The position numbers and the translations under genes were made by a program. From assembly GCA_902385655.1 (NCBI GenBank), contig CABMGO010000003.1:176456-240455 (forward strand): 64,000 nucleotides of DNA, in the 5' to 3' direction. Positions 10,831-11,810 of the stretch are shown here, one piece after another (positions within the stretch are counted from its first letter, which is position 1; each line of letters starts with the position of its first letter). This stretch comes from an uncultured archaeon. Lineage in GTDB: Archaea > Nanobdellota > Nanobdellia > Pacearchaeales > GW2011-AR1. The notes beneath the pieces were generated by a model, which was given only the letters and a program-made list of their open reading frames with translations, had not been told where the DNA came from and did not search any database.

Positions 10831-10999
10831 ATTAATTAATGCTAAATGGCACTGTAAAAGCTCCGCTTTATTCTGCTTATATTCTGGTCTTTCAAAAGAA
10901 ACATATATTTGTTTTTCTTCTACGATTTTATTTATCTCCTATTTTAGATTCGATTAAAAACATCGTTATCGATGCGAGTCATTCTTAGTTTAATTTCGT

Positions 11000-11128
11000 C
11001 CATTTTGCGATATTTTCACCAAATTTATTTAATTTTGAAAAATGGCAAGGTAACGAACCTGTTGAGTTACCGCTATCGGGCTTTTTTGACCAAACTGAAA
11101 GTTTGGAACAATTCAAAAAACGCTCTAC
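11000..11128. repeat. structured intergenic element copy A
   Basis: Near gapless alignment to reverse complement of 34923-35048; stems GGTAAC/GTTACC and CCAAAC/GTTTGG covary between copies. Confidence 0.8.
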
Positions 11129-11129
11129 A

Positions 11130-11810
11130 TCAAATCCTATTGAACACATCATTGTCAATCCTTGTCATTCTTAATTTGATTTCGTCCATCACCTTAGAAA
11201 TTTCAGTAATCTCTTCATCTTCTTGTAATTTTATTTCTTCAATCTTACTCAAAACTTCTTCAACCTCTCTTAAGTCTCTTGAGATTTCTTGAACATCTCT
11301 CTTCGCAGAATTAAATTTATCTATTCTTACAAAGATGGTCTCCTCAGCATCTTTCTTCACAACACCTTTCTGTTCTTCCGATACTGTTTCCACTTTCGGC
11401 ATTTCAACTCTAGCCGGCGGGGAGGGGACAACCTCTATTTTCTTTAGTTCTACTAATGGTTCGGGTTTTACTTCTTTCTCCATTTTCTGCGGAGGCAAGG
11501 CTGGAATTCCAACTTGCATTGAGGATTCTTCAAAACCCTTCATGGAGCCAGCTGAGGCTCCAGAAGTATCACCTTTCATTTTCTCAGAAGAGTCTTCAAT
11601 TGCTGATTTTATAACGTCTCTATTAAGTTGATCACGACCATCTCCAGACATAGCAGGTAAAGAAGGAAGAGTTTCTACAGGCTTTTTTGGAAGAGAAGGT
11701 ATTGCAGGAATAGTTTCAGAAGGTTTTGGTTCAGCAATTGGCATAATACGTGGAACCTCTGGAGCTAGAGGAATTTCAGGGATTTTGTCTTTTTTACCGA
11801 ATAAACTCAT
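11130..11810 (-). CDS. Pro-rich/coiled-coil hypothetical protein
   Basis: Long ORF; C-terminus MDEIKLRMTRIDNDVFNRI is repeated downstream (see findings). Confidence 0.65.
   Translation of the reverse strand: MSLFGKKDKIPEIPLAPEVPRIMPIAEPKPSETIPAIPSLPKKPVETLPSLPAMSGDGRDQLNRDVIKSAIEDSSEKMKGDTSGASAGSMKGFEESSMQVGIPALPPQKMEKEVKPEPLVELKKIEVVPSPPARVEMPKVETVSEEQKGVVKKDAEETIFVRIDKFNSAKRDVQEISRDLREVEEVLSKIEEIKLQEDEEITEISKVMDEIKLRMTRIDNDVFNRI

Follow-up and report, generated by a model that had tools for sequence, protein, structure and literature searches.

How does a gene come to carry its own end twice? The stretch of 64,000 nt analysed here (the window) comes from a contig of an uncultured Pacearchaeales archaeon. 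In it, two minus-strand copies of the sequence encoding MDEIKLRMTRIDNDVFNRI, the C-terminal tail of a gene that we call gene1, flank a 123-nt insert, element A. The encoded residues are identical at 19/19 positions, while 11 of the 19 codons differ, as does the stop codon (TGA upstream, TAA downstream). A first-pass annotation of this DNA had described these features, all of which we confirm. It had also placed the insert exactly between the tails, which is correct, but over positions 11000-11128, where the repeat proper is 11004-11126. At the nucleotide level 46 of 60 positions are identical, the other 14 comprising nine transitions and five transversions, and 126 nt separate the stop of the first tail from the ATG of the second. 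The features of the locus, together with two further copies of the element, are listed in Table 1.

Table 1. Positions in the window of gene1, gene2, the two tails, element A and two further element copies.
Feature	Position	Strand	Remarks
gene1	11130..11810	-	complete ORF; 226-aa coiled-coil-type protein; carries the upstream tail copy
Upstream tail copy	11130..11189	-	codons for MDEIKLRMTRIDNDVFNRI and TGA
Repeat element A	11004..11126	-	BLAST and covariance-model matches in genome; pairing kept across copies
Hairpin P1	11080-11126	-
Conserved linker CCGATAGC	11072-11079	-
Hairpin P2	11049-11071	-
Hairpin P3	11005-11048	-	CCTTGC at the P2/P3 boundary
Downstream tail copy	10944..11003	-	19 codons and TAA; begins exactly at the element's ATG
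Possible upstream ORF through the element, MMCSIGFDVERFLNCSK...KWTKLN*	10985..11152	-	overlaps the ATG after the element; predicted from sequence
AGGAG, Shine-Dalgarno-like, before gene2	10936..10940	-	sequence; similar in the element-free relative L056
gene2	10531..10926	-	131 codons; next gene of the conserved pair
Element copy L065	34925-35047	+	between pheS and pheT; ends exactly at the pheT start codon
Short-type copy L088	57686-57751	-	small ORF MTCNKFALLIAVKNNSDSSINLLSCEGGRFAK*, its TGA overlapping the next ATG

The two spellings of the tail bear the mark of selection on the protein. When as many nucleotide changes were placed at random, the best of 20,000 trials kept only 16/19 residues; it follows that both copies have been shaped by selection on the encoded peptide. 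No special cause is needed for this many synonymous changes, which match unconstrained synonymous drift: between two random strings drawn from the codon usage of the genome, the mean expectation is 8.3 differing codons, and 11 or more have a probability of 0.13. Between species, gene1 tails are identical at 43-47 of 60 nucleotides, both to each other and to the two tails of the window, and in one relative (P0002, 79% identity over gene1) the 19 tail residues are exactly these. The recoding would be best explained as ordinary synonymous divergence at the between-species level and not as an adaptation of the element. The proposal that it serves to block re-targeting is not supported by the same comparison (46/60 in the window against 43-47/60 between species). 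The codon usage of the downstream copy lies in about the lowest 2.5% for the genome, which weakly suggests a foreign source. A scan of the 135 ORFs of the window for downstream copies of their C-terminal 20 residues gave the gene1 tail a score of 96 and the runner-up 36, and no second ORF of the window had a comparable copy.

The arrangement in relatives shows which tail is in its native place. The gene1 product has no match in Pfam. It has 33 relatives (one, P0004, is named as Candidatus Pacearchaeota), the closest 79% identical and each with a single C-terminal tail of the same type; genome and viral collections yielded none closer. In this genome gene1 and gene2 are each present as a single copy, and their neighbours in the window include the genes for AlaRS and TFE. 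Judging from genes such as those for TFE and the archaeal ribosomal proteins, and from the named relative P0004, the host would be a DPANN-type archaeon. In most relatives inspected gene2 follows gene1 directly or with an overlap of a few bases, the order being conserved, and the single gene1 tail (ID..IF..) leads straight into gene2. Because gene1 abuts gene2 in relatives, the downstream tail of the window is the original copy in its native place, and the first-pass view that it is a displaced original was right to that extent. A decaying full-length tandem paralogue, the other origin considered at first pass, was not seen and is rejected, as relatives have one gene1 followed by gene2 and gene1 is single-copy here. 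Across from residue 1 of relative P0036, which begins MVEEKQIY with ATG, gene2 of the window has ATC (10924-10926, minus strand), which reflects either a sequence error or a start codon that has been lost or is non-standard.

Three loci, L056, L057 and L058, are the closest gene1/gene2 relatives compared at the DNA level. In L056 gene1 runs without any element through a stop codon and a Shine-Dalgarno sequence into gene2 (gene1-TAG-GGAGG-AAAATT-ATG-gene2). In L058 the order is gene1-TAA-spacer-element-ATG-gene2, with the gene2 ATG immediately behind the element and no duplication of the tail. The L057 sequence ends inside the element, of which the 5' part is present. In the window the upstream tail is followed by the element, as in L058, and the downstream tail by TAA, AGGAG and gene2, as in L056; the locus therefore holds both junction types in series.

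On balance, we think that two alleles of one gene1/gene2 junction have probably been fused at this locus. One version would have been element-bearing, as L058 is (gene1, stop, element A, gene2 ATG), and the other element-free, as L056 is (gene1 tail, stop, Shine-Dalgarno, gene2), the parent alleles coming from lineages as far apart as species. Homologous recombination at the gene1 end and an illegitimate join at the opposite end would have linked DNA of one version to the other, the latter join connecting the gene2 start codon behind the element with gene1 codon Met208 at the short common word ATGG, possibly extended to ~10 bp; ATGG is common to the gene2 start of L058 and to gene1 Met208. The recoding would have arisen as synonymous divergence in each parent lineage, with selection on gene1 preserving the residues, and the downstream tail would be the remnant of the second gene1 allele in its native context. 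As the simplest history, a single join of this kind would account at once for the recoding, for a second tail that starts exactly at an ATG and stands in its native context, and for the element between the tails. Such a fusion is supported by the existence of both junction types in relatives and their serial arrangement in the window, and by a tail divergence that is at the between-species level with every residue conserved. The hairpins of the window element are different modules from those of L058, and it is position alone that points to identity by descent of the two insertions. That recombination took place, in which direction and with what exact microhomology, we infer from the sequences themselves. 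In homology-facilitated illegitimate recombination one end is homologous and the illegitimate join usually carries 3-10 bp of microhomology (PMC3240628); such a process predicts a diverged partial duplication like the one seen here. It was described in three bacteria with natural competence and put to the test by conjugation in E. coli (PMC3240628); unlike these, the host here is an archaeon.

The same two-allele structure is predicted if co-occurring strains with and without element A at this junction were fused in the contig, and such an assembly chimera would look the same as recombination. The assembly is of the metagenome style (84.7% complete, 8 contigs), and the ATC at the start of gene2 would also fit. 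We nevertheless hold a chimera to be quite unlikely: the common word at the join, ~10 bp or less, is below usual assembly k-mers, gene1 and gene2 are single-copy, estimated contamination is 0.13%, and the contig runs on normally for 242 kb. The tail duplication is most likely the product of ordinary recombination between diverged alleles, or else an assembly artefact.

The remaining explanations depend on what element A does elsewhere in the genome, which was covered by searches and by targeted stretches. BLAST with the element gave 19 matches in the 836-kb genome, and a covariance model built from 11 copies (35 pairs) gave 34 at E ≤ 1; as the latter include overlapping or weak matches, we put the copy number at ~30. 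As matched, most copies are 66-185 nt long, with the layout P1, linker CCGATAGC, P2, CCTTGC, P3, A and start codon. The first-pass description of the insert as structured holds when copies are compared, since 95.8% of pairs are kept over the 11 copies, with 54 doubly changed cells and 0 of 500 shuffles as high; it does not hold for the window element alone, which gives no structure signal (z = -0.2). The repeat is lineage-specific: under strict filters the model found no match in 187 other genomes of the family or 210 of the order (overlapping samples), and among the other loci scored with it only L057 and L058 match. There was no Rfam match at the gathering score or at E ≤ 0.1, and the 123-nt insert contains no nuclease or integrase gene. 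A viral source was set aside, since pattern scans gave only 14-16-mer matches and the model found none in the 48 contigs of one scan.

Element A is anchored to start codons. The 3' end is intact in 28 copies, and in at least 23 of these it falls exactly at an ORF's start codon, which is GTG in one case. Pfam backs 16 of these ORFs, several profiles matching from residues 1-6: uS12, PheT, a PIN protein, an ABC exporter, NrdR, SecY, an ABC ATPase, SBDS, uL3, uL18, a radical SAM protein, an MFS transporter, a winged-helix protein, a flavodoxin-fold reductase, T2SSF and a glycosyltransferase. Altogether about two dozen genes lie behind the element, unrelated to one another. For comparison, ~3% of ATG triplets in the window (59 of 1874) are starts of ORFs of at least 120 aa; any formal p value for the anchoring is only descriptive, because the copies are related. 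Departures from this pattern are the window copy, which ends at an internal Met codon; L077, which lies in another gene's leader; L081, with the start ~22 nt beyond; and two that are stacked on a further copy. A later rearrangement would explain the place of the window copy. A search of the open literature, limited in extent, returned no description of a start-codon-anchored repeat; this modular repeat is newly recognised and is a more novel result than the tail duplication.

Most copies also lie within a small ORF. We looked for ORFs that begin 90 nt or more upstream, traverse the element and have their stop within -24 to +28 of the gene start; 21 of 28 copies have one, against 17 of 58 control genes of the window (Fisher p = 8e-5). 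In many copies its stop overlaps or touches the gene start (ATGA, TAAAATG), and a small ORF that ends at or near a start codon should allow translational coupling. The frame of this ORF relative to the hairpins is not constant among copies; what seems to be preserved is thus an open frame and not a particular peptide. At L065 the small ORF begins at the pheS stop, crosses the element and continues beyond the pheT ATG.

The near-constant ending of the element at an ATG bears on a further explanation of the duplication, in which the element entered before the Met208 ATG and copied ~60 bp of target, after which both translated tails drifted synonymously. The downstream copy is indeed an intact 19-codon ORF with zero amino-acid change, and another copy, L077 (1501-1643), is flanked on both sides by a 13-nt direct repeat, ATGGTTGCGCAGT, that starts at the ATG and lies in a non-coding leader. 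The L077 repeat is possibly a target-site duplication. Among the 27 other copies compared, those remaining apart from L077 and the stacked tandem L091/L093 have no flanking duplication; the similarity of left flank to right end over the copies is marginal (permutation p = 0.016), and a target-site duplication as a general feature, being clear in L077 only, seems doubtful. We regard this history, with its 60-bp target duplication, as less likely and indeed improbable, because saturated synonymous change with zero amino-acid change requires long purifying selection on a 19-aa peptide and because other copies are without such duplications; it also ignores the relative with the element at the proper gene1/gene2 junction (L058).

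That a homing-like element supplied a recoded replacement tail and so stayed compatible with its target gene, as proposed at first pass, we consider hardly credible: the layout at this single site, with gene tail on both sides of the insert, does resemble that of homing elements and integrases which rebuild the 3' end of their target, but the insert has no nuclease or integrase, the recoding is no more than saturation, the element normally sits at start codons, and none of the 27 other copies compared (0/27) carries a gene tail, an outcome that the first-pass annotation had itself named as grounds for refutation. A diversity-generating retroelement was rejected because the tails differ at synonymous third positions and by Arg/Leu codon switches, where such an element would leave A-to-N changes in the target copy. 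Mobile introns and splicing were also rejected, since the same element precedes start codons without any upstream coding exon.

What, then, is element A? Its three hairpins reassort freely between loci: the identities of the P1, P2 and P3 modules between copies are uncorrelated (r = 0.14, -0.19 and 0.07), L078 and L079 have an identical 59-nt P2 with unlike P1, and L076 and L077 have P2 and P3 in common with P1 unlike. It is possible, though doubtful, that a self-spreading element inserts at start codons, that the old start then launches a small ORF through the three hairpins, and that the re-supplied ATG overlaps the stop of this ORF, so that translation of the host gene is coupled to it; hairpins would be exchanged between loci, and the 19-residue tail of the window would be a separate functional peptide. 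We think it unlikely that the element (as distinct from the duplication) is a functional cis-acting RNA leader, a structured 5' UTR whose place at the start codon is regulatory, and not a mobile repeat. Its pairing is strongly kept and it stands exactly at the start codon, GTG included, in most intact copies; against this, its targets range over unrelated genes (uS12, uL3, SecY, PheT, NrdR, SBDS, transporters), it was not found in the sampled genomes of the family and order or in Rfam, and some copies are in tandem. Compensatory changes alone are no proof of RNA function, and were set aside as such, because they come largely from whole-hairpin swaps between copies.

By analogy, the nearest known counterparts would be the BOX elements and the Rickettsia palindromic elements (RPE). 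BOX elements of Streptococcus pneumoniae are short, lineage-restricted boxA-boxB-boxC modules with stem-loops and variable make-up, which are co-transcribed with genes and sometimes form ORFs (PMC3049150). Element A is likewise short, lineage-restricted and modular, with stem-loops, and its modules combine independently between copies. It differs in that it is found in an archaeon with its 3' end fixed to start codons, and the likeness is one of architecture. RPE are ~150-bp palindromic repeats that insert in frame and are coding-compatible (PMC10969869). Both repeats are palindromic and compatible with coding, but an RPE is located within a gene and lengthens its protein, whereas element A precedes the start codon and sits in a small upstream ORF. 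With MITEs and the palindromic elements derived from IS200/IS605 it shares being short, non-coding, hairpin-rich and multicopy (~30) and having no transposase. Unlike a MITE, it has ends (AGGNCG... and ...AAAATG) that are not inverted repeats, no terminal inverted repeats being seen. A target duplication in the family is seen at one copy only (L077). The genome carries one Y1 transposase; the ends of that locus do not match element A, nor does the element model match there (a comparison that covered the Y1 family only), and a Y1 partner was rejected, as this only copy has its own, different ends.

The tail duplication is probably a recombination scar, and it illustrates that perfectly 'recoded' copies can arise without design or selection for recoding. 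In this streamlined archaeon the repeat family itself takes up the last bases before the starts of core genes, namely those for ribosomal proteins, SecY and PheT. Should the family be mobile, its choice of insertion site spares the host gene, and it would offer a natural test of translational coupling and of the swapping of hairpin modules between loci.

Two further observations concern the element copies. At L087, L091 and L093 short-type copies stand in tandem, every unit running from ATG to ATG, which suggests that one start codon has been the site of insertion or duplication more than once. In the near-identical L057 and L058 the loop of the P2 hairpin is very different (TATTCATTTCATTCAAAAACG and TACTCGTTACACTCAACAACG, respectively) and the remainder almost unchanged, as if this loop were subject to fast mutation or exchange.
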